This document shows positions 1,525 through 13,268 of a DNA stretch of 52,193 bases, piece after piece. The position numbers were made by a program, and so were the translations under genes. Position 1 is the stretch's first letter. Each line of letters opens with the position of its first letter. The notes beneath the pieces were generated by a model that searched no databases, had not been told where the DNA came from, and saw nothing but the letters and a program-made list of their open reading frames with translations. This DNA comes from Chloroflexota bacterium (lineage in GTDB: Bacteria; Chloroflexota; Chloroflexia; Chloroflexales; Roseiflexaceae): contig JAGWYG010000016.1 of assembly GCA_018969485.1 (NCBI GenBank), positions 1 through 52,193 of the forward strand, in the 5' to 3' direction.

Positions 1525-3033
1525 TTGCCACCGAAACCATCTCCCGCGCCACGCCAGGGACCGCGTGCCCAGCGGACTGCCACCCGCCACGAGCGTGAGG
1601 CGCGCCGCCAGCGGGCCGTCGTGCTGCTGACGGCGGCCACGGTTGGCCTTGCGGTCTTCGCCATGCTCGTCGGGCTGGCGTACGACCAACTCTGGGTGCC
1701 GTCCCGGCCGGTCGCACGGGTGGGCGACGCGACGCTCACGAATGCTGATTACTGGACGGAACGCCGCCGCGATCATGCCAGAACGATCACCCAGAACCTG
1801 GCATTCGCCAGTTTTGGCCCCGAATTCGCCGCCCAATTCCTCGGCGACATCGGTCGCCTCGACGCTGAGGTCGACCAGTTGCGCACGGCAGAAGTGGACG
1901 AGACCGTCGTCGCTCGCTGGGTCGAACGCCAGACGCTGCGCCAGGCTGCGACGCGTGAGTTCGGCGTCGCCGTCGATGACGGCGCGGTGGCGCAGGCCTT
2001 TATGTCGCTCTATGGCGAGGCGTTCGATCCTACGCCGGACCTGACCAGCCCGGTGCCGCCGCTGCCGGAGCCGACGGCTGTGGCGACGGCGGTGCTGTCG
2101 GCGACGGTGGTGCCCGGCACGCCGACGGCTACGCTGCCGCCGACGGCTACGCTGCCGCCGACGGCTACGCTGCCGCCGACGGCCACGCTGCCGCCGACGG
2201 CCACGCTGCCGCCGACGGCCACCGCCTTGCCTGATGCCGCGCTGACGCGCGAGGCGAAGGTCCTCGATACGATCTTCAACGCCTACCTCGACCAACTGGC
2301 GCAGATCGATTCGCTCCGGCAGCCGAATCTCACGATCGACGATTTCCGCGCCGCGCTGCACGACCAGTTCGCCGACCAGGCACTGACCGATGTGGTGCAG
2401 GCGCGGCTTGTGCCCGACGAGGGCTTCGTCGTGTCGGAACAGCCACGGCAACTGCGCACGCGCCAGATCGCGTTGCGCGTGGATCCGGCTGCAACCGATC
2501 GCGAGGCGGCCTTTGTCGCACGGCTCGCCGACGCCGAAACGGTGCGGGCCGAGCTCGACGCCGGCGCCGACTTCGCCACGCTGGCCCGCGAGCGCTCCGA
2601 CGACACGCGCTCGCGCGAGGATGGTGGCACCGTCGCGGCATTCGACTGGTCGGGCGCAACCGACGGCGGCGAGCAGATCGATCCGGCATATCTCGAGGTC
2701 GCGCGCGGGCTCGAGGCTGGCGCCATCAGCGCGCCGTTCCGGACGACCTTCGGCTGGCACATCGTGCAGGTGGTCGAGCGCGTGGTCGATGAGCGCCCCG
2801 CGCAGCTTCGGACGGCGCGGACCACGGCCTTCGAGGCATGGATCGCCGAGCAGCGCGACCGCACGCCGGTCGAGCGCATTCCGGCACAATCGCCGACGCC
2901 GACCGCTGAGCCGACGGGCACTGCTGCGCCGTTGCCGACGGTCGATCTGGCCGCACCGCCGTCGCCGACGCCACTACCGTCGCCGACGCCATTGCCGCTC
3001 GAAGGAGTGACCGCCACGCCTACCGGTGATTGA
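1525..3033 (+). CDS. Membrane-anchored parvulin-type peptidyl-prolyl isomerase (SurA/PrsA-like)
   Basis: Probable extracytoplasmic foldase, 502 residues. A basic N-terminus is followed by a hydrophobic anchor (VVLLTAATVGLAVFAMLVGL, ~32-52), a SurA-N-like helical region (~60-170), a Pro/Thr linker with five tandem PTATLP units, and a PPIC (rotamase) domain at ~315-430 recognisable from ADFATLARERSDD and the FGWHIVQVVER end. The last ~50 residues are a second Pro/Thr-rich tail. The start is TTG at 1525: it has AGGAGGG at 1514-1520 with ideal spacing, and no better ATG fits before the membrane segment. Exact substrates cannot be told. Confidence 0.85.
   Translation: MPPKPSPAPRQGPRAQRTATRHEREARRQRAVVLLTAATVGLAVFAMLVGLAYDQLWVPSRPVARVGDATLTNADYWTERRRDHARTITQNLAFASFGPEFAAQFLGDIGRLDAEVDQLRTAEVDETVVARWVERQTLRQAATREFGVAVDDGAVAQAFMSLYGEAFDPTPDLTSPVPPLPEPTAVATAVLSATVVPGTPTATLPPTATLPPTATLPPTATLPPTATLPPTATALPDAALTREAKVLDTIFNAYLDQLAQIDSLRQPNLTIDDFRAALHDQFADQALTDVVQARLVPDEGFVVSEQPRQLRTRQIALRVDPAATDREAAFVARLADAETVRAELDAGADFATLARERSDDTRSREDGGTVAAFDWSGATDGGEQIDPAYLEVARGLEAGAISAPFRTTFGWHIVQVVERVVDERPAQLRTARTTAFEAWIAEQRDRTPVERIPAQSPTPTAEPTGTAAPLPTVDLAAPPSPTPLPSPTPLPLEGVTATPTGD
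2122..2223 (+). repeat. 18-bp coding minisatellite in the foldase gene
   Basis: Five full copies and a partial copy of the 18-base unit CCGACGGCTACGCTGCCG, starting at 2122, 2140, 2158, 2176, 2194 and 2212, with only C/T changes. Each full copy encodes six residues (PTATLP), so copy-number change keeps frame and alters linker length between the helical and PPIC domains. Confidence 0.9.
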
Positions 3034-3067
3034 GCGGGCCGGCGGTTTCTGAGCGAGGGAGTGCGAC

Positions 3068-3982
3068 ATGCGCCGTTGGAGACCGCAGGCATCGAATAAT
3101 CTCCTGATCGCGATCACGCTGTTCCTGGCCGCTGCCACGTCGGCGGCGGCCATCGGCAGCACGATCGCCGGGACGTTCGATGGACCACCTGAGAGTTGGC
3201 AGATCAATCTGCCAGTGTATGGCCGACTGGTGCTGACGCTGATGCTCGCGCTGGCGGCGCTGGCGCTGCTGTATCGTGTGATCGCCGGCGCGACGCTGGT
3301 GTATGATGTCGATCGCAATGGCGTCTACATCGCCAATTTCTGGCAGAAGGTGACGATCCCGCTGCACGAGATCCGCGATGTCAGCCAGGGCATCGACGGC
3401 GTCAGCCTGCCGTGGGGTTCGGCCCAGGCGCTCGGACACTACTGGGGAGCGGCGGCGCTGCCTGATGCGACGGCGCTGTACCTGTTCAGCAGCGTGCCGC
3501 CCGAACAGAGCGTGATCATCACGACGGGGCAGGGCGCATACGCCATCGCCCCGGGCGATCTCGATGCCTTCGTCCAGGACATCGAGCAGCGTCGCAAGCT
3601 AGGCGTGACCAAGCGCCTGAACCAGGCGGATGTCACCTTTGGCTGGGGCCTCGGCGGGTTCGTGGGTGATCCCCACGTACAGGCACTGCTGGCGCTGGCC
3701 GGGGTGGTGTACGTGCTCGGCCTGGGCTTGATTGCCTGGGCCTATCCGTCGCTCCCGTCACAGATCGACATGCGCTTCGATGCCACGGGCGAGACGACCG
3801 GCCTGCTGCCCCGGCATTTCATTCTCTACCTGCCGGCGGTCTCGCTGGCGGTGGCTGCGGTGAACCTGGTGCTGGGCCTGCTGGCGTATCGGTGGGAGCG
3901 TCTGGCGTCACGGGTGCTGCAGGCGGCGACGCTCATCGCCCAGTTGTTGTTCGCGCTGGCGGTGCTGGCGATCATCACCTGA
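3068..3982 (+). CDS. Membrane protein with bacterial PH-like domain and DUF1648-like segment
   Basis: Function unknown. The 304-residue product has two N-terminal transmembrane helices (~12-32 and ~55-78), a soluble domain (~80-175) that reads as a bacterial PH fold (LVYDVDRNGVYIANFW through DLDAFVQDIEQRR), then a C-terminal pair or triplet of helices. The sequence SQIDMRFDATGETTG between helices is typical of DUF1648 proteins. ATG at 3068 with GAGGGAG upstream. Same strand and close behind the foldase gene (34 bases), possibly cotranscribed. Confidence 0.75.
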   Translation: MRRWRPQASNNLLIAITLFLAAATSAAAIGSTIAGTFDGPPESWQINLPVYGRLVLTLMLALAALALLYRVIAGATLVYDVDRNGVYIANFWQKVTIPLHEIRDVSQGIDGVSLPWGSAQALGHYWGAAALPDATALYLFSSVPPEQSVIITTGQGAYAIAPGDLDAFVQDIEQRRKLGVTKRLNQADVTFGWGLGGFVGDPHVQALLALAGVVYVLGLGLIAWAYPSLPSQIDMRFDATGETTGLLPRHFILYLPAVSLAVAAVNLVLGLLAYRWERLASRVLQAATLIAQLLFALAVLAIIT

Positions 3983-4062
3983 CGCGCTGCCGTCGGCCGG
4001 CCGTGCGCGGCAGCGGCGGCGCGCGTGACGCTGGCGTCAGGCCATCATCCGGGGAGGTGTCG

Positions 4063-4533
4063 ATGTCACGGTTGTTGCAGCGCCGCGCGATTGAACTGAG
4101 CGATGCGGGCCATGCGCTGGCCGAACGCATGGCGGCGCTGGGGCACCGCGTGACCCAGCCGCGCCTGGCGGTGCTCGATGCGGCGGCGGCCCTGCCGGCG
4201 TCGTTCACGGCCGCCGAGCTCGAGCAGTGGCTCGTCGCACGGCAGCGCTCGCCGGGAACGGCCAGCATCTTCCGCACGCTGAAGCTGCTGGTCGAGGCAG
4301 GCATCCTCGAGCGCATCCACGGCGTGGATGAATGCCATCGCTACACGGTGAGCGCTGGCCACGGCCATCGGGTGGTATGCCTCGGGTGCGGCGCGCTGAG
4401 CAACTTCGAGCAGTGCGCCCTCGACGGGCTGGTCGTGTCGCTCGAGCAGGCGACGGGATACCGGATCTCGCAGCACCTGCTCGAGTTCTTCGGCCAGTGC
4501 CCGGCGTGTCAGCGCGGTGGCGTCGCCGTCTGA
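4063..4533 (+). CDS. Fur-family metalloregulator
   Basis: DNA-binding metal- or peroxide-responsive repressor, 156 residues. The winged-helix part is at ~20-90 (VTQPRLAVLDAAAAL; GTASIFRTLKLLVEAGILE) and the dimerisation part follows with HGHRVVCLGCG. Cys106/Cys109 and Cys146/Cys149 (CPAC) form the two pairs expected for the structural zinc site. The start at 4063 is chosen for GGGGAGG at 4051-4057 and family length; the open frame extends upstream without a ribosome site. Metal specificity (Fur, Zur or PerR) cannot be read safely. The 3' end overlaps the convergent gene by 25 bases. Confidence 0.88.
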   Translation: MSRLLQRRAIELSDAGHALAERMAALGHRVTQPRLAVLDAAAALPASFTAAELEQWLVARQRSPGTASIFRTLKLLVEAGILERIHGVDECHRYTVSAGHGHRVVCLGCGALSNFEQCALDGLVVSLEQATGYRISQHLLEFFGQCPACQRGGVAV

Positions 4534-5057: not shown

Positions 5058-7016
5058 ATGGTCGAGGCGGCACGCTGGTCGCGCTGGTGGTACCTGGTCG
5101 TGGCGCTGGGGGCAGTGTGGCCGCGGGTGGACGGCCTGGGGCGCTACGCGACCGGCGACGAACTGATGTTCTGGCTGCCCCGCTCGCATCAGTTCGCCGC
5201 GGCGCTGATGTCGGGCGAGCTTGCCGGCACGGCGCTGTCGACGCACCCGGGGGTGACGACGATGTGGCTGGGGTGGGCGGGCATACGCCTGGGCGAGGTG
5301 CTGGCGCAGGCCGGCCTGATCGGGCTCGATGCGCCGATGGCGCTGCTGATGCTGCGCCTGCCGGCGGCGCTGGTGAATGCGGCGTGCGTGGTGCTGGGGT
5401 ATGGGCTGCTGCGGCGCGTGCTGCCGCGTGCGGCGCTGCTGGCAGCGCTGCTGTGGGCGTGGGATCCGTTCGTCGTGGCCTACAGCACGCAGCTGCACGT
5501 GGACGCACTGATGGGCTCGTGGCTGACCATCAGCCTGCTGGGGATGCTGCTGGCAGCCCAGCGGGGGTGGCATGCCGGCTGGGTGATGCTGTCGGCGCTG
5601 GCGGCGGCGCTGGCAGTGCTGAGCAAGTCGCCCGGCGTGCTGGTGCTGCCGCTGGGCGCGCTGGTGGGGCTGCTGTGGCTGTGGCGCCCGACGGATGCGG
5701 CGCCGGCTGACATGCGGACGCGGGCCGGGTTGCTGGGCCGCGCCGCCGTGCTGTGGTCGCTGACGGCTGCTGCAGTCATGCTGCTCTGCTGGCCGGCGCT
5801 GTGGGCCGCGCCGCAGGCAGTGTGGCAGCAGTTGCGCGCCGGCGTCGAGGCCGAGGCGGCGAGCCCGCACATGCGCGGCAACTACTTCCTCGGGCGGCCT
5901 GATGCCGCGCCGGGCTGGCTGTTCTACCCGGTGGCCCTGGCGCTGCGCAGCACGCCGCTGTCGCTGGCCGGCGTCGTGCTGGTGGCGCTGGCATGGCGCG
6001 GCAGCACGCCCGCCGAGCGACGGGCGCTGGCAGTGCTCGCCGCGCTGGTCGTCGGCCTGTGCCTCGGCCTCAGCGCGTTCGACAAGAAGCTCAACCGCTA
6101 CCTTGAGCCGGCCTTCGCCGCCTTCGACATCCTGGCGGCCGCAGGATGGCTGGCCGTGGTGGCGCGGCGGCCACGCGCCACGACGCTGCTGGTCGGCGCG
6201 CTGGCGGCGGCCAACCTGGCCTGGTGGCAGCCGTACCCGATCGCGGCGTTCAACCAACTGCTCGGCGGCGGCGCCGGCGGCGCGCGTACGTTCCTGGTCG
6301 GCACGGGCGAAGGGCTCGAGCAGGTGGCCGCCTACCTGGGCACGCGCGCCGACATCGGCGGCGTGGTGACCGTCGCGCCGATCGCCCGCACCGTGCAGTG
6401 GTTCATGCCACCCGGCGCACGGGTGATCGATCCGGCCGACGAGCAACTGCCCCACAAAGCCGGCTACGTGGTGGTCTACCGCCGACAGCTGCAGTTCACC
6501 CGCCTGCCCGGCCCGTATGCCGATGTCCATCAGCGTGGCGTGGCGCTGCGTACCTTTGCCATCCATGACGTGCCGTATGCCTGGGTGTACCAGGTGCCGC
6601 CTGCGACGCGCTACCGCTACGATGCCAGCTTCGCGCCGGGGCTGCGCCTGGTCGGCGCCGAGCCGGTCGGCGTGGCACAGCCGGGCGGTGCGCTGACGCT
6701 GCAGCTGGTGTGGCAGCCGCAGCAGGCGCCGCTCGAGGCCACGATGGTGTTCCTGCACCTCGTCGATGCGGCCGGCGTGCGCGTCGCACAGAGCGATGTG
6801 CCGCTCGACACCGCCGGCTGGGAGGCCGGCGCCATCGGCCGCAGCGAGCTCGCCCTGCCCCTGCCGGCCGATCTCGCCGCTGGCACCTACCAGGTGTTCC
6901 TGGGCACCTACGATCCGGCGACCGGTGCGCGCCGCCCGCTGCACACCACAGCAGCGCTCGATCCGGCGCGCAGTGGCGCCGACGCGCTGCCGCTGTTCGT
7001 CTGGAGCCTGCCATGA
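5058..7016 (+). CDS. GT39/ArnT-like membrane glycosyltransferase (copy 1)
   Basis: Probable polyprenyl-phosphate-sugar-dependent GT-C transferase, 652 residues. About ten transmembrane helices occupy the first ~430 residues; the acidic loop after helix 1 (GRYATGDELMFWL) and STHPGVTTMWLG, GNYFLGRPDAAPGWLFYPV and FDKKLNRYLEP are family landmarks. The last ~170 residues form a beta-rich extracytoplasmic domain. ATG at 5058 follows GCAGGAG; an upstream GTG at 5019 lacks a site. Its stop overlaps the start of the paralogue downstream (ATGA). Acceptor (protein or lipid) unknown. Confidence 0.8.
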   Translation: MVEAARWSRWWYLVVALGAVWPRVDGLGRYATGDELMFWLPRSHQFAAALMSGELAGTALSTHPGVTTMWLGWAGIRLGEVLAQAGLIGLDAPMALLMLRLPAALVNAACVVLGYGLLRRVLPRAALLAALLWAWDPFVVAYSTQLHVDALMGSWLTISLLGMLLAAQRGWHAGWVMLSALAAALAVLSKSPGVLVLPLGALVGLLWLWRPTDAAPADMRTRAGLLGRAAVLWSLTAAAVMLLCWPALWAAPQAVWQQLRAGVEAEAASPHMRGNYFLGRPDAAPGWLFYPVALALRSTPLSLAGVVLVALAWRGSTPAERRALAVLAALVVGLCLGLSAFDKKLNRYLEPAFAAFDILAAAGWLAVVARRPRATTLLVGALAAANLAWWQPYPIAAFNQLLGGGAGGARTFLVGTGEGLEQVAAYLGTRADIGGVVTVAPIARTVQWFMPPGARVIDPADEQLPHKAGYVVVYRRQLQFTRLPGPYADVHQRGVALRTFAIHDVPYAWVYQVPPATRYRYDASFAPGLRLVGAEPVGVAQPGGALTLQLVWQPQQAPLEATMVFLHLVDAAGVRVAQSDVPLDTAGWEAGAIGRSELALPLPADLAAGTYQVFLGTYDPATGARRPLHTTAALDPARSGADALPLFVWSLP

Positions 7017-8944
7017 CGCCGATGCTCCGCCGCCTGCTGGCCTGGGGCAGCATCGCGCTGGCTGCCGCAGTGCCACGCCTGCTCGACCTCGGTGGTTTTC
7101 TGACGGTCGACGAGGCCAATTTTTGGCTGATGCGCTCGGCGCGCTTTCTCGCCGCGCTCGAGCGCGGCGATGTTGCCGCCACCGCGCTGTCGACGCATCC
7201 GGGCGTGACGACGATGTGGGCCGGGGCGCTGGGCATCCGGCTGGGCGAGTGGCTCGCGACGGCCGGGCTGGTCGGGCTGGACTATCCGATGTTCCTGGCG
7301 CTGGCGCGCCTGCCGGCGGTGCTGCTGCACATCGGGTGCATCCTGGTGGGCTACGGGATGCTGCGCCGATTGTGGGGCGGTGGCGGCGCCTGGCTGGCGG
7401 CAGCCCTGTGGGCGCTGGATCCGTTCATCATCGGCTACAGCCGCCTGTTGCACGTCGATGCGCTCGCCGGCTCATTCATGACTGTCGCGCTGCTGGCGGG
7501 ATTGCTGGCGGGCCGCGCGGCACAGCCAGCGCGCTGGCTGGTGCTCGGCGGCATCGCCGGCGGTCTGGCGCTGCTCAGCAAATCCCCGGCGCTCGTCCTC
7601 GTGCCACTGGCGCTGGTGCTGGCCGGCTGGCAGGTGGTCGGCAGCCGTCGGGCTCCGGCCGGCGTCGCGCGCGGCCTGATGCTGTGGGGCAGTACCGTCG
7701 CGCTCACGGTCGTACTGCTGTGGCCCGCGCTGTGGGCTGATCCACTGGCGGCGCTGCGCTGGATCGGCTCGGGCGTGGCCGACGAGGGCGCGCAGCCACA
7801 CATGCTCGGCAACTTTTTCCGCGGCCAGCAGGACGACGCGCCGGGCTGGCTGTTCTACCCGGTGGCGCTCGCGGCGCGCAGCACCCCGCTGACGCTGCTC
7901 GGCGTCCTGCTGCTGCCATGGGTCTGGCGCCGCGTCGCACCAGACCACCGCGGCGACCTGGCGCGGCTGGCGCTGTTCGTTGTGGTGTTCGTCGTGGCGC
8001 TGAGCCTGTTTCCCAAGAAGTTCAACCGCTATCTCGAGCCGGCGATGCCGGCGATGGCGATCATGGCGGCGGCGGCCTACCCCGCCGCGGTCGGTGGCCG
8101 TCGGGCGCCGGTGGCACTTGCCAGCGTGGGGCTGCTGGCGGCGCTCAATGCCGCCGCGTGGCACCCCTATCCGATCGCTGCGTTCAACCAACTGCTCGGC
8201 GGCGCCGCGCTGGGCGCACGCACCTTCAGCATCGGCTGGGGCGAAGGCCTCGAGCAGGTCGCCGCCGCCCTCGCGACCCGCGACGACATCCGCGGCGTGG
8301 TGACGGTGACGCGCTTTGCCAGCAGCCTGGCGCCGTTCATGCCCGCCGGCGCCGCGGTGGCCCAGCCCGACGCGGGCGCGTGGCCGGAGCATGCCGGCTA
8401 TGCCGTCGTGTACGTGTCGCAGGTCCAGCGCGGTCTGCCCTCGCCGCCGCTCGATGCGCTGGTCCGCGATGGCGTGCCGTGGCAGACGATCAGCATCCAC
8501 GGTGTGCCATACGCGTGGATCTACCAACTGCCGCCGCCGGTGGCGCTGCCGCGCGCCGCGCGCTTCGGCGAGGCGCTGCAGCTCATCGGCGCCGATGCGG
8601 AGCGCGTCGTCGACGGCGCCTGGATGATGCAGCTGGTCTGGCAGGTGCGCCAGCCACCGCCCGATGATCTGATGCTGTTCGCCCACCTGATCGCGCCCGA
8701 TGGTATGCGCGTCGGCCAGGCCGATCTGCCGCTGGATGCGCATGGCTGGGCGACGGGGACGGTCGCACGAACCGAGTTTGCCGTCCCGCTGCCGGCGTCG
8801 CTGCCGGCGGGCCGGTACCGGCTCTACCTGGGGGTGTATCGCCGCGGCGATGGCCAGCGGCTGCCGCTGCTCAGCGCCATCCCGCTCGAGCCCGAACGCA
8901 GCGGCGCCGCCGCGCTCCCGCTGCACGATCTGGTGTGGCCGTGA
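7013..8944 (+). CDS. GT39/ArnT-like membrane glycosyltransferase (copy 2)
   Basis: Paralogue of the preceding gene, 643 residues with the same order of landmarks: LTVDEANFWLMR after helix 1, STHPGVTTMWAGALGIRLGE, GNFFRGQQDDAPGWLFYPV, FPKKFNRYLEPAMPA, LEQVAAALATRDDIRGVVT and a beta-rich C-terminal domain. Start at 7013 is fixed by the ATGA overlap with the upstream stop, which implies translational coupling. The two genes look like a tandem duplication with substantial divergence and may act on related glycan steps (inference). Confidence 0.8.
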   Translation: MTPMLRRLLAWGSIALAAAVPRLLDLGGFLTVDEANFWLMRSARFLAALERGDVAATALSTHPGVTTMWAGALGIRLGEWLATAGLVGLDYPMFLALARLPAVLLHIGCILVGYGMLRRLWGGGGAWLAAALWALDPFIIGYSRLLHVDALAGSFMTVALLAGLLAGRAAQPARWLVLGGIAGGLALLSKSPALVLVPLALVLAGWQVVGSRRAPAGVARGLMLWGSTVALTVVLLWPALWADPLAALRWIGSGVADEGAQPHMLGNFFRGQQDDAPGWLFYPVALAARSTPLTLLGVLLLPWVWRRVAPDHRGDLARLALFVVVFVVALSLFPKKFNRYLEPAMPAMAIMAAAAYPAAVGGRRAPVALASVGLLAALNAAAWHPYPIAAFNQLLGGAALGARTFSIGWGEGLEQVAAALATRDDIRGVVTVTRFASSLAPFMPAGAAVAQPDAGAWPEHAGYAVVYVSQVQRGLPSPPLDALVRDGVPWQTISIHGVPYAWIYQLPPPVALPRAARFGEALQLIGADAERVVDGAWMMQLVWQVRQPPPDDLMLFAHLIAPDGMRVGQADLPLDAHGWATGTVARTEFAVPLPASLPAGRYRLYLGVYRRGDGQRLPLLSAIPLEPERSGAAALPLHDLVWP

Positions 8945-9270
8945 TCGTTCGGCGCGTGGGGTGCGCCGCGGTCGTGATGGCAGCGGCGCGTCCGGCCAAG
9001 CCCTGAGGCACGCGCGCAGGCCATCAGGGCGGGCCGCTGCGGCAGCGTTGGCGCTCCCGGTCCTCGTGAACCGTTCTGCCACGGTCCGTGCTGCCGACTC
9101 ATCCCGTGCAGCATTCGGTGGTGCGCCGGAACCGGCGGCTGTGCTGCTGGAGGTCACCAGTCGCGCGGATGACAGCCGCAGCCGGTGGGGCGATGTGCCG
9201 TGTTCCGCTCAATCGCATGTGCCAGGAGCAAGGCATGAAAATAGTTGGAATGCACGATGCAATTGCTCTG

Positions 9271-9499
9271 ATTCATCCCGCACGGCCCTTGACAGCATCG
9301 GTGCCGTCGAGTATGATGCTGAGGCTTGATCGATATCGCTGCCGCCGACCGTCGCCCTGACGGCGTCCGGCCCGATCGGTGCCAATGCCTCCTCCGTTGT
9401 GCTCCTTGGTCGTTTGTGTTCCGTGTTCCGTCTGCCACGATCGCTGATCATCGGTGATCATGGGTTCATGCCCGAATGCGGCGCGCGATCCCCGTCGAT
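9271..9499. repeat. 229-bp direct repeat, copy 1
   Basis: Begins ATTCATCCCGCACGGCCC and ends at CCCGTCGAT; it recurs at a 260-base offset with about nine mismatches in 229 positions. The 31 bases between the copies are unique. The repeat contains the minus-strand relic of the MTDDQR...TTKE cassette. Confidence 0.92.
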
Positions 9500-9530
9500 C
9501 TCAGTTTGCGGAATGCCGCATTAGCCCTGG

Positions 9531-9759
9531 ATTCATCCCGCACGGCCCTTGACCGCATCGGTGCCGTCGAGTATGATGCTGAGGCTCGATCGATATCGCT
9601 GCCGCCGACCGTCGCCCTGACGGCGTCCGGCCCGATCGGTGCCAATGCCTCCTCCGTAGTACTCCTTGGTCGTTTGTGTTCCGCGTTCCGTCTGCCACGA
9701 TCGCTGATCATCGGTGAGCGTGGGTTCATGCCCGAATGCGGCGCGCGATCCTCGTCGAT
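9531..9759. repeat. 229-bp direct repeat, copy 2
   Basis: Second copy of the 9271-9499 unit, from ATTCATCCCGCACGGCCC to CTCGTCGAT. Differences cluster at the minus-strand start codon region (GATCATGGG versus GAGCGTGGG), so only copy 1 keeps an ATG in front of the DDQR relic. Confidence 0.92.
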
Positions 9760-9970: not shown

Positions 9971-10648
9971 ATGAGCGCACTGACGATCACGACCATCCGG
10001 GAGCACGGCGGGCTGTTCCAGGCCATCCCGGCCGGCGACGGGGTGCCGGCGTTCCGGCTGATGCAGACGCCGGTGACCAACGCGCAGTATCGCGCGGCCG
10101 TGCTGGCCGGCGTGGTGCCGCCGCCGGCGGCCAGCAACCAGGTGTGGCAGCTGCGCACCCACGACGACCACCCGGTGGTCGATGTGACGCTGGCGCAGGC
10201 GCAGGCCTATGCGCAGTGGCTGGGCGGCCGGCTGCCGCGGGCGGTGGAGTACGCGCGGGCGCAGGGCGCGCAGCGCTACCCGTGGGGCGACGCGGCGCCG
10301 GAGCCGCGGCACGCCAACCTGGCACAGCCGGCGCTGCTGCCGGTGGGCAGTTGCCCGGACGGCGCGGGGCCGTACGGCACGCTGGACCTGGTGGGCGGCG
10401 TGTGGGAGTGGGTGCTGCCCGAGCAGCCGGGCGAGGTGGCGGTCACCGGCGGGGCGTACTGCACGACGCTGGCGCAGTTGGCGGCGGCGGCGCGCGTGGC
10501 GGTGCGCACGCGCTACTACTGGCTGACGCCGGGGATGATCGGCTTCCGCGTGGCGGTGGGGCCGCAGCCGCCGGCGCGGGTGGCGCTCGTGCCGCCACGC
10601 CGGGGACGCGGGCGGCCGCGCAAGGACGCGCTGCCACGCGCCGCGTGA
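9971..10648 (+). CDS. FGE-sulfatase-fold (SUMF1/PvdO-type) protein with AT-hook tail
   Basis: 225 residues. The FGE/C-type-lectin-like domain spans ~25-195: TPVTNAQYRAAV, HPVVDVTLAQAQAYAQWLGGRLPRA, RYPWGD, GGVWEWV, TGGAYC and a terminal IGFRVAVG. It is shorter than enzymatic FGEs and the two active-site cysteines of formylglycine-generating enzymes are not evident, so a binding role is more likely than catalysis (inference). The last ~25 residues are basic and contain RRGRGRPRKD, an AT-hook-like DNA minor-groove motif. ATG at 9971 has AAGGAGA upstream. It is related to the FGE domain of the convergent minus-strand gene (shared TNAQYR.AV.AG). Confidence 0.85.
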   Translation: MSALTITTIREHGGLFQAIPAGDGVPAFRLMQTPVTNAQYRAAVLAGVVPPPAASNQVWQLRTHDDHPVVDVTLAQAQAYAQWLGGRLPRAVEYARAQGAQRYPWGDAAPEPRHANLAQPALLPVGSCPDGAGPYGTLDLVGGVWEWVLPEQPGEVAVTGGAYCTTLAQLAAAARVAVRTRYYWLTPGMIGFRVAVGPQPPARVALVPPRRGRGRPRKDALPRAA

Positions 10649-11072: not shown

Positions 11073-12596
11073 TCAGCGATCGGGTGCAGGGTGCGGATCC
11101 ATGCGTTCCGCATCGAGCCGATCCCAGACGACGCGAAAGCCGATGTGATACCCGGATGTGTCGGCACCATAGATCAGCCGTGCCGCGATCCCGGTGGTGG
11201 CTGCATCGCAATAGAATGCGCCCCCGCGCACCACATACGCCCCATCGGCGACCCATTCCCACACATTGCCGGCCATATCGACCATGTGATGCGGGCTGAC
11301 GCCCTGCGGGTACGCGCCGACCGGCGTCGTGCCGCCGGGGCCATGCGGCCGGCAGTTGGCCCGCGTCTCGTCGTGTCGCTGATTGCCCCACGGCCAGCGA
11401 CGCCCATCGCTACCCTGCGCCGCCCAGGTCCATTCGGCATCGGTCGGCAGCCGCCCGCCGACCCAGCTGGCATATGCGCATGCGTCGGCCCGCGTGACCT
11501 GCACCACCGGATGGTGAGCGTACTGCGGATCCATCAGCCGCTCGGCGTGCCGTCCCGCCGGCTGGCCGCAGACCCCCGCTGTCACTGCCCGACGGTACTG
11601 TGCGTTGGTGATTGGTGCGCGCGTCATCCAGTAGGCTGGCGCTGCGCTGTCAGGCGATAGCGTGACCGGCACCGCGTCGACTGTCTCCTGCCAGCGCTCC
11701 AGCAGTGCATCCAGCCGCGCGTTGAACCACGCGGGCTCCTTGGGCTGTGACTGAAACCCGGCATGCTGGATGTCATTGCGCACCTCCTGCACAGTGCGTC
11801 TGATATCCCCAACCTCGCTGCTCCAGCGCGTCTCCTGCGCCTGCCGCTCCTCGCGCCTGTACGCGCGCCAGCCAGGGCCGGCCGCGGCGTCGCTCCCACC
11901 ATACGAAATCCAGCCCTCGCGCACCACCGAGATTGCCTCGCTGTACCGTCCCATCGAACGGTACAGGCGGGCCAGCGCGATCAGCGCCTGCTGGCCCTGC
12001 ATGCTGCCGAGCCCGTGACCGCGCGTTTGCAGTGGTCCGGCCATGGCGCGCAGCTGGTCGAGCACCGGCAGCAGCGCCGGCAGATGCTCCGCGATTTCCG
12101 GCCTTGTGGCGTCCAGCGTCTCGACCAGCTGTTCGGCTGATGAATGCTGGCCTCGACTGCGGCCGATCAGCAGCGATCCGGTGCGGATGGTCGTGAGGTC
12201 GCCGCTGAATGCCTCGAGGTCACGTTTGAGCAGCCCCAGCGCGCGGGGCTGCCTGCCTGCGCGCCCACCATCTCGCCAGCGCTTCATCAGCGACTTGTTG
12301 ATCGCGTCCGTCGATCGGACGATCCCGCCCGCCTGTCCAGTGCGCAGCATCAGCATGAGGTCACGCGACCACGCCAGAACATCCAGAAAGGTGGTCAGCT
12401 CCCAGATCGGACTTTGGGCTGGCTGTGGTTTATACTCGGCATAGACCACGCGTATATTGGCATGACCTGGATTGATCGACTGGACGTATTGAATGCATGC
12501 GGCAGCAAAGAATGGCTGACTTCGGAAACCGTGTGTGATATCGAGCATGATATCATCTGTTTTTCTGGATAGCTCCTCGATGAGGATCGTAAACAA
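11073..12596 (-). CDS. C-terminal part of CARF(DxTHG)-HEPN-FGE fusion protein (broken gene)
   Basis: This 507-codon frame follows directly, in the same frame, after the UAA that ends the 12597-12863 frame, so the two are one gene with a single nonsense codon. DITHGFRSQP (residues 19-28 here) is the DxTHG motif of Csx1/Csx2 (TM1812) CRISPR-associated proteins; IRVVYAEYKP and the following helices complete the CARF domain. A helical region to ~310 holds EVRNDIQHAG, whose R-N-x3-H (Arg273, His278) is the HEPN RNase signature. From ~320 a complete FGE-sulfatase fold follows (APITNAQYRRAV, GGRLPTDAEW, RWPWGN, MAGNVWEWV, YVVRGGAFYC, YHIGFRVVW). The likely role, ligand-triggered RNA cleavage with an added binding module, is inferred. 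Confidence 0.8.
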   Translation of the reverse strand: MFTILIEELSRKTDDIMLDITHGFRSQPFFAAACIQYVQSINPGHANIRVVYAEYKPQPAQSPIWELTTFLDVLAWSRDLMLMLRTGQAGGIVRSTDAINKSLMKRWRDGGRAGRQPRALGLLKRDLEAFSGDLTTIRTGSLLIGRSRGQHSSAEQLVETLDATRPEIAEHLPALLPVLDQLRAMAGPLQTRGHGLGSMQGQQALIALARLYRSMGRYSEAISVVREGWISYGGSDAAAGPGWRAYRREERQAQETRWSSEVGDIRRTVQEVRNDIQHAGFQSQPKEPAWFNARLDALLERWQETVDAVPVTLSPDSAAPAYWMTRAPITNAQYRRAVTAGVCGQPAGRHAERLMDPQYAHHPVVQVTRADACAYASWVGGRLPTDAEWTWAAQGSDGRRWPWGNQRHDETRANCRPHGPGGTTPVGAYPQGVSPHHMVDMAGNVWEWVADGAYVVRGGAFYCDAATTGIAARLIYGADTSGYHIGFRVVWDRLDAERMDPHPAPDR

Positions 12597-12863
12597 TTAC
12601 CATAGCTCGCTGTGTCCCTGTTCTGTAGGAATGTGCCTATGACAAATAGAATTTGGCGATAATGTGCTCGTTATCAGTGCTCCGTGTCTGTCCCATGCTT
12701 CTTTGGTGGCAATGAACACAATGTCATCAATATGTGTACCGTTGTGTTTGAGTGCCGTCACAATTGCTTCTATGCAATAGCATGTTGTGATGATTTGCTG
12801 GCCGTCAAACGTATAATTCACTGCCTGATAGTTGCCTGTCCCGACAAAGCTGATGACGCGCAT
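12597..12863 (-). CDS. N-terminal part of the same CARF(DxTHG)-HEPN-FGE gene
   Basis: 88 residues: MRVISFVGTGNYQAVNYTF is the first strand and glycine-rich turn of the Csx2/TM1812-type CARF domain; IDDIVFIATKEAWDRH is the second strand region. It ends TEQGHSELW and a TAA at 12599-12597; reading on in frame gives LFTILIEEL and then the DITHG motif, matching the usual continuity of the family. A single base change (for example GAA or CAA to TAA) would explain the break. Start chosen at 12863, with GAGGA five bases upstream. The DNA here is clearly more AT-rich than the flanks, suggesting horizontal acquisition. Confidence 0.75.
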   Translation of the reverse strand: MRVISFVGTGNYQAVNYTFDGQQIITTCYCIEAIVTALKHNGTHIDDIVFIATKEAWDRHGALITSTLSPNSICHRHIPTEQGHSELW

Positions 12864-12873
12864 CGCATTCCTC

Positions 12874-13268
12874 GCACGATTCGGCTCGGCTCGACGATTG
12901 TTGCAGTGCTGATACCAGAGCTCCGAGGTATCCACGGGATGGCCGTTCTGCGGTGCGTCGTGGCCCGCCAGAGAATCCATTCATCGATGGTCGACTACGC
13001 ATCATTATAGCTGGATAGCTGGCAATCCGGCCCGGTTCAATGCCGTGGACCATTAACGGGACCATTATTGCCAACATCGCAACCATGCACGATTCGGCTC
13101 GGCCCGACGATCGTTGCAGTGCTGACACCAGAACTCCGAGGTATCCACGGGATGGCTGCGCTGCAGCGCGTTGTGGCCCGCGGACTATGCACCATGATAG
13201 CTGGCAGTACGGCCTGGTTCGATGCCGTGGACCATCAATGGGGCCATCATTGCCAACATCGTAGCCAC
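12874..13268. repeat. Tandem duplication of the CARF-gene leader
   Basis: Two head-to-tail copies of one segment: copy 1 at 12874-13086, copy 2 at 13087-13268 (offset 213). Shared blocks include GCACGATTCGGCTCGG, GAGGTATCCACGGGATGG and GATGCCGTGGACCAT-like sequence; copy 1 carries roughly 30 extra bases near 12975-13000. The repeat boundary is 11 bases upstream of the CARF gene ATG, so the 5' untranslated and promoter region has been duplicated. No repeated 25-40-base units with spacers are present, so this is not a CRISPR array. Confidence 0.8.
13004..13009 (-). promoter_or_regulatory. Candidate -10 box for the CARF gene
   Basis: The complementary strand reads TATAAT here, about 140 bases upstream of the CARF gene start. 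The equivalent place in the second leader copy reads TATCAT. No good -35 hexamer is found at 17 bases, so this is only a candidate. Confidence 0.3.

Follow-up and report, generated by a model that had tools for sequence, protein, structure and literature searches.

The gene described here lies on the minus strand of a contig of 52,193 nucleotides from a member of the Roseiflexaceae (Chloroflexota), which was analysed over its whole length and is called the window below. In a single frame running from 12863 to 11076 it joins a CARF domain, a HEPN RNase domain and a compact FGE-sulfatase domain. Minus-strand translation of 11073-12863 gives 596 residues, from an ATG at 12863 with an AGGA just 5' of it to a stop codon near 11073, and the frame holds a single in-frame TAA, at codon 89 (12597-12599), with no frameshift. 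The CARF domain covers about residues 1-178 (12330-12863) and carries the DxTHG signature of such domains as DITHGFR (residues 108-114, 12522-12542). A helical linker and the HEPN domain follow at about residues 179-400 (11664-12329), with the R-x4-H catalytic motif RNDIQH at residues 362-367 (11763-11780), and the FGE domain, of the C-type-lectin-like fold, takes up residues 404-582 (11118-11654). The motifs on which the original prediction of a CARF-HEPN-FGE fusion was built were all recovered on this strand, namely MRVISFVGTGNY at residue 1, DITHGFR, RNDIQH, GGRLPTDAEW, NVWEWV, RGGAF and IGFRVV, and those quoted for the three domains stand far above chance (profile E-values of 3e-100 and 1.8e-33, and a DxTHG match above the curated cut-off).

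The TAA divides the gene into 88 and 507 codons of the same frame. The 88-codon part lies inside an ORF of 127 codons that starts further upstream, and the 507-codon part opens with a TTG directly 3' of the TAA. The stop falls between conserved blocks of the CARF domain, at a position where aligned homologues carry an ordinary sense residue (Q, E, R, D and others). Change-point analysis and composition by segment also delimit a GC-poor block at 12376-13263, with 52% GC in a window of 70%, which covers the CARF half of the gene together with duplicated DNA before it and contains the lowest-GC stretch of the window. The tandem copies upstream of the gene pair 12874-12968 with 13087-13181 and 13014-13085 with 13196-13267; the DNA 5' of the gene has no second copy in the host genome, and a search of the locus against Rfam gave no match. 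A simple transfer does not explain the GC-poor CARF half, as the genes of its relatives show no such break there.

On the plus strand, at 9971-10648 and convergent with the fusion gene, lies a lone FGE-domain gene (PF03781, E=8.5e-24) whose product ends in an AT-hook-like tail, PRRGRGRPRK, with only a weak match to the AT_hook profile (E=0.29). At 9270-9759 a stretch of about 230 bp is duplicated in tandem, with 97% identity and a period of 260, and each copy carries a sigma-70-like TTGAC(A/C)-17-TATGAT.

Identity and origin of the CARF-HEPN part

In the Csx1/Csx2 family the CARF domain binds cyclic oligoadenylate (cOA) made by Cas10 and switches on RNA cutting by the HEPN domain. The PADLOC model PDLC01842 (CARF2, CARF_HEPN_CSX16) matches residues 1-418 of the window protein with E=3.2e-100 and 334 bits, and other Csx1 models also match this part. 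The DxTHG profile TIGR02549 scores 35.4 bits on the CARF domain, above its cut-off of 21; TIGR02221 (cas_TM1812) scores 66.2 bits, below its curated cut-off of 76.25, and the gene is not filed under that equivalog. Within the alignment D108, T110, F113 and R114 of the CARF signature and R362, N363, D364 and H367 of the HEPN motif are invariant, R362 and H367 aligning with those of all relatives. An AlphaFold model of the whole protein, built from an alignment of 45 rows, has a pLDDT of about 94 over residues 1-400 (about 93 for the CARF domain, which shows a Rossmann pattern, and about 95 for the linker and HEPN domain). Its best Foldseek matches in the PDB are Marinitoga Csx1-Crn2 and then Sulfolobus Csx1, the CARF part matching the CARF-HTH of Csx1. 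The first 400 residues thus give a Csx1-like CARF-HEPN fold, and the expectation of a CARF-HEPN pair of the Csx1/Csx2 kind is borne out by profiles, alignment and structure comparison. By profile, motifs and fold this part is an RNase of the Csx1/Csx2 type from the CARF2 clade, and cOA-activated RNA cleavage is predicted for it; the ancestral CARF half would have bound Cas10-made cOA and so turned on the HEPN domain.

The relatives of this part were sought apart from the FGE domain; the full-length search of the phylum was flooded by FGE matches. No close relative came up when genome and viral contigs were scanned with the single protein, the phage search found no relative, and the plasmid search gave only Csx2 proteins of about 25% identity. 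Among 150 related genomes the best match reached 71.8 bits at 27% identity, and in a sample of 400 genomes of the phylum the PADLOC model scored at most 167 bits, as compared to 334 for the window protein. Kin surfaced once an alignment was used to scan 84,980 species genomes; the nearest, with 45-48% identity over residues 1-398, were all Planctomycetota (loci L107-L112, L122 and L148). A maximum-likelihood tree nests the window protein within this Planctomycetota clade as sister to L108 (supports 98/93; 99/91 and 100/99 for the wider sets around it), on a branch that is long (0.9) against 0.18-0.51 for the other inner-clade members.

The original prediction had called for a look at the neighbours of any three-domain homologues; none with an FGE domain turned up, and the neighbours of the CARF-HEPN kin do include type III CRISPR genes. 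At L109 the CARF-HEPN gene adjoins Cas10b, Cmr4 and Csx3, at L111 it adjoins a Csm3-type fusion and Csx15, and in the flanks of other kin, judged by eye from ORF lists, several ORF openings resemble Cas10 and Cmr proteins. The L108 locus holds, at 2477-4204 and 6725-7828, a gene for a CARF-HEPN protein with an extension and, close to it, a CARF7-RelE gene. The simplest reading of these sequence relationships is that the CARF-HEPN gene would have come by lateral transfer from a donor like the Planctomycetota, in which genes of this kind adjoin type III CRISPR operons.

The FGE domain and its family in the host genus

The C-terminal domain matches PF03781 over residues 408-580 with 116.7 bits against a gathering cut-off of 23.3, and its matches in the PDB are ToxD, FGE and CalU17. 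In the 45-row AlphaFold model this part has a pLDDT below 50 and is unusable; a separate model of low-to-medium quality (mean pLDDT 61.6) gave Foldseek matches to ToxD, CalU17, EgtB and FGE. The domain had been described as complete, which holds for a compact form of about 175 residues that spans profile positions 34-255 of 255, and does not hold for a catalytic FGE. Both active-site cysteines of formylglycine-generating enzyme bind copper. In the alignment to T. curvata FGE the first of them is kept (GGAFYC) and the second is replaced by Thr, and a C-x4-C pattern was found in none of the FGE domains of the genus that were compared. With the second copper-binding cysteine missing, formylglycine activity is not expected, and the sequence indicates that the window FGE should not be a formylglycine enzyme. 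That the RNase carries a working formylglycine-generating or EgtB-like enzyme, as the PF03781 match and the presence of one of the two active-site cysteines might suggest, is on this basis extremely improbable. Without the copper-cysteine pair the domain would be a non-catalytic add-on that binds a ligand or a protein and thereby may regulate or tether the RNase.

Matches to the window FGE number 37 in the host genome and 13 in the sole other genome of the genus, as compared to mostly 1-7 copies per genome in the rest of the family and order. The closest is a protein of the same genome, with 58-59% identity, and in a quick FastTree analysis the window FGE groups with two same-genome copies and one same-genus copy, so that by sequence it is best placed in a genus-specific expansion of compact FGE domains. 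The partners of these domains, a few of them scanned against Pfam and the others judged by eye in the ORFs, include protein kinases, lipoprotein-like proteins, repeat proteins and a protein with an HExxH-like stretch, besides FGE domains that stand alone. The FGE nearest to that of the window is the C-terminal domain of a protein of 613 residues (L101 4376-6214, contig C246) with a metallopeptidase-like stretch, VHEIAHWAAH; apart from the FGE this protein has no Pfam match.

Several of the FGE paralogues of the host genome (L018, L022 twice, L025, L033 and the frameshifted L037) share a terminal block, GTTGTCTCCCCCGGGCCCTGA, which is identical, GC-rich and placed at the stop codon, and the roughly 25 codons before it are mostly NNC or NNT. 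These variable ends lie at L018 3250-3400, L022 6393-6480 and 4296-4383, L025 4388-4481, L033 107-191 and L037 410-501. Among three copies of equal length the differences at codon positions 1/2/3 number 28/32/5 in the end, as compared to 75/86/179 upstream (Fisher p about 1e-12, which is indicative only, the pairs not being independent). The codon pattern in these ends is that of adenine-directed variation by diversity-generating retroelements (DGRs). The suggestion that the FGE might be the variable receptor of a conflict system therefore stands in part, for paralogues and not for the window copy, which has neither a DGR-like variable repeat nor the shared 3' (IMH-like) block. Nor did the reverse transcriptase that had been proposed as a possible neighbour appear: no DGR reverse transcriptase was found in the host genome, and no template repeat in those host-genome stretches that were read, which cover part of the genome. 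The only RVT_1 match of the host genome is a fragment on contig C161 (L069/L100, 1-882) of the group II intron type; as a DGR reverse transcriptase it was rejected, as it matches group II maturases. The shared 3' block of the variable copies also forms the very end of contig C162 (L253, 18570-18619); assembly gaps may therefore hide more such copies, or the template repeat and reverse transcriptase. The genus-wide FGE expansion, with DGR-like ends in several members, is possibly the more valuable lead of this study.

A fusion in the C-terminal slot of the clade

In the wider clade the position after the HEPN domain is empty or is filled by Csx16 (L120), Csx3 (L113), Csx15 (L116) or, in L108, an unnamed extension of 190 residues in which, by eye alone, a PD-(D/E)xK-like ExK pattern may be discerned; a Pfam scan of the tails in L108, L116, L121 and L129 gave no match. 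The Planctomycetota fusion to Csx15 (L116 3150-4793) differs from the PADLOC architectures that we have seen, which name Csx16, Csx20 and Csx3. In homologues the chain either ends no more than about 15 residues past the last HEPN helix or goes on into a different tail. In the window protein Csx16, Csx3, Csx15 and Crn have no match in the C-terminal part, whose domain is PF03781, and the helix WFNARLDALLERWQETVDAV runs in frame straight into FGE sequence. FGE was absent from every ORF of 80 CARF-HEPN loci among the genome contigs and, even at E-values up to 1, from 54 such loci of related genomes (134 loci, with some overlap between the two sets). Since FGE is found in no homologue, the fusion would be local to this lineage, and we infer that it took place inside the genus, after the transfer, when the 3' end of the acquired gene was fused in frame to a member of the FGE family that has multiplied there.

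A single example naturally raises the question of an assembly chimera, or of chance read-through of two separate genes, the more so as repeats and FGE copies break the assembly and several FGE matches lie at contig ends. We regard this as very unlikely. The frame stays open from the HEPN domain into the FGE, the junction shows no start codon with a good ribosome site, and the gene is interior to the 52-kb contig; the best DNA match of this FGE within the host genome has only 74% identity, which makes a collapsed repeat unlikely. The predicted in-frame fusion is accordingly upheld by the profile match and the open junction; of the proviso that the FGE part might be joined here only by chance, its absence from all homologues is true, and the fusion itself is a genuine one. 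CARF-HEPN-FGE is a real and so far unique architecture built on a well-known effector, represented by one example, and the statement that no such protein had been described held up in a search of the open-access literature for CARF together with FGE-sulfatase or formylglycine. The C-terminal slot of this clade takes varied modules, and their comparison would show which couplings are possible for a cOA-activated RNase; we know of no earlier CARF effector that bears a lectin-like domain for recognition, and the FGE version, if functional, would be the first.

State of the gene and comparison with known systems

That the gene belongs to a CRISPR signalling system at work in this host is not supported. 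Profiles for RAMPs (PF03787), Cas10/Cmr2 (TIGR02577), Cas1 (PF01867) and SMODS had no match in the host genome (4.02 Mb in 247 contigs, 95.6% complete), a further TIGR02221 protein was not found there, and the gene itself contains a stop. Of the 68 deeply invariant residues the window protein keeps 59, as compared to at least 95% in each close relative. With no cOA source found in the host and the CARF domain cut by a stop, the likeliest state of the gene is that of an effector left stranded and in decay, and not that of a functioning part of immunity. We therefore consider it probable, on balance, that the gene encodes a laterally acquired cOA-activated RNase which was fused inside the genus to an FGE of ligand-binding type, and which is now orphaned and probably decaying. 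It would then plainly exemplify a type III effector transferred without its signal-maker, and this is likelier than a functional protein.

Several observations speak against decay. One stop in 596 codons with no frameshift would look the same if it were a recent variant in the population or had arisen in sequencing or assembly; the DxTHG and HEPN catalytic residues are intact, and third-position GC in the HEPN and FGE segments is still coding-like. As regards orphaning, about 4.4% of the genome is lacking and the assembly is split into 247 contigs, and a type III locus or a plasmid could have been missed. The main rival ascribes the stop to an assembly error or to strain variation and takes the gene to be working, the intact protein being served by a cOA source missing from this incomplete and fragmented assembly (a type III CRISPR system or an unrecognised synthase). 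The FGE would then sense or bind a second signal or, in a slot that often carries a regulator in this clade, keep the RNase in check as a ring nuclease otherwise would. We judge this unlikely, in view of the absence of matches to Cas10, RAMP, Cas1 and SMODS, of invariant residues lost faster than in the kin, and of the failure of the searches to yield a second example of the fusion.

Alternatively, the protein might have been recruited away from CRISPR, with the FGE controlling the HEPN domain and the CARF domain vestigial; a product of 507 residues may then arise by renewed initiation at the TTG after the TAA. The open 507-codon frame would fit this, as would the GC-poor, faster evolving CARF half, the many partners of the expanded FGE family and the DGR-like variability of some of its members. 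It is nevertheless rather improbable, as DITHGFR and other CARF residues 3' of the stop are still kept, the TTG lacks ribosome-binding evidence and the window FGE has no DGR-like end. One may further speculate, with a low expectation of being right, that the genus has rewired the RNase to a lectin-fold recognition domain from a family partly diversified by a retroelement, as a suicide RNase triggered or tuned by a recognised molecule in addition to cOA; if true, this would connect type III CRISPR signalling with antigen-receptor-like DGR systems.

Returning to a stranded and probably decaying effector as the preferred reading, the gene can be set beside known systems. With the PADLOC CARF_HEPN_CSX16 proteins (Csx1/Csx2) it shares full-length CARF-HEPN homology, DxTHG, R-x4-H and fold, but ends in an FGE rather than Csx16; the FGE sits where several relatives bear a ring nuclease (Csx16, Csx3) or Csx15. 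The Planctomycetota proteins, nearest in the tree and similar across the whole CARF-HEPN part, include two in type III operons (L109 and L111); only L108 has a tail, and none has an FGE. In contrast to CARF2-clade effectors generally, the window gene lies away from a type III locus, is interrupted by a stop and falls below the TIGR02221 cut-off. Its domain shares fold and PF03781 with the aerobic formylglycine-generating enzyme, but is compact and lacks the second copper-binding cysteine. FGE domains have been described as recognition modules of conflict systems, both in VMAP systems (PMC7159879) and in the EAD8-nSTAND1 targets of DGRs (PMC10907252). The window protein has in common with these an FGE-type lectin fold C-terminal to an effector or signalling protein, whereas STAND, VMAP, EAD and reverse transcriptase partners were not found for the window gene, and its copy has no variable repeat. 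Marinitoga Csx1-Crn2 (PMC7293037; PDB 8y6z, 8y7g) is likewise a CARF-HEPN RNase with an added C-terminal domain; there the addition is a cA4 ring nuclease, whereas the window protein carries a non-catalytic-looking FGE.
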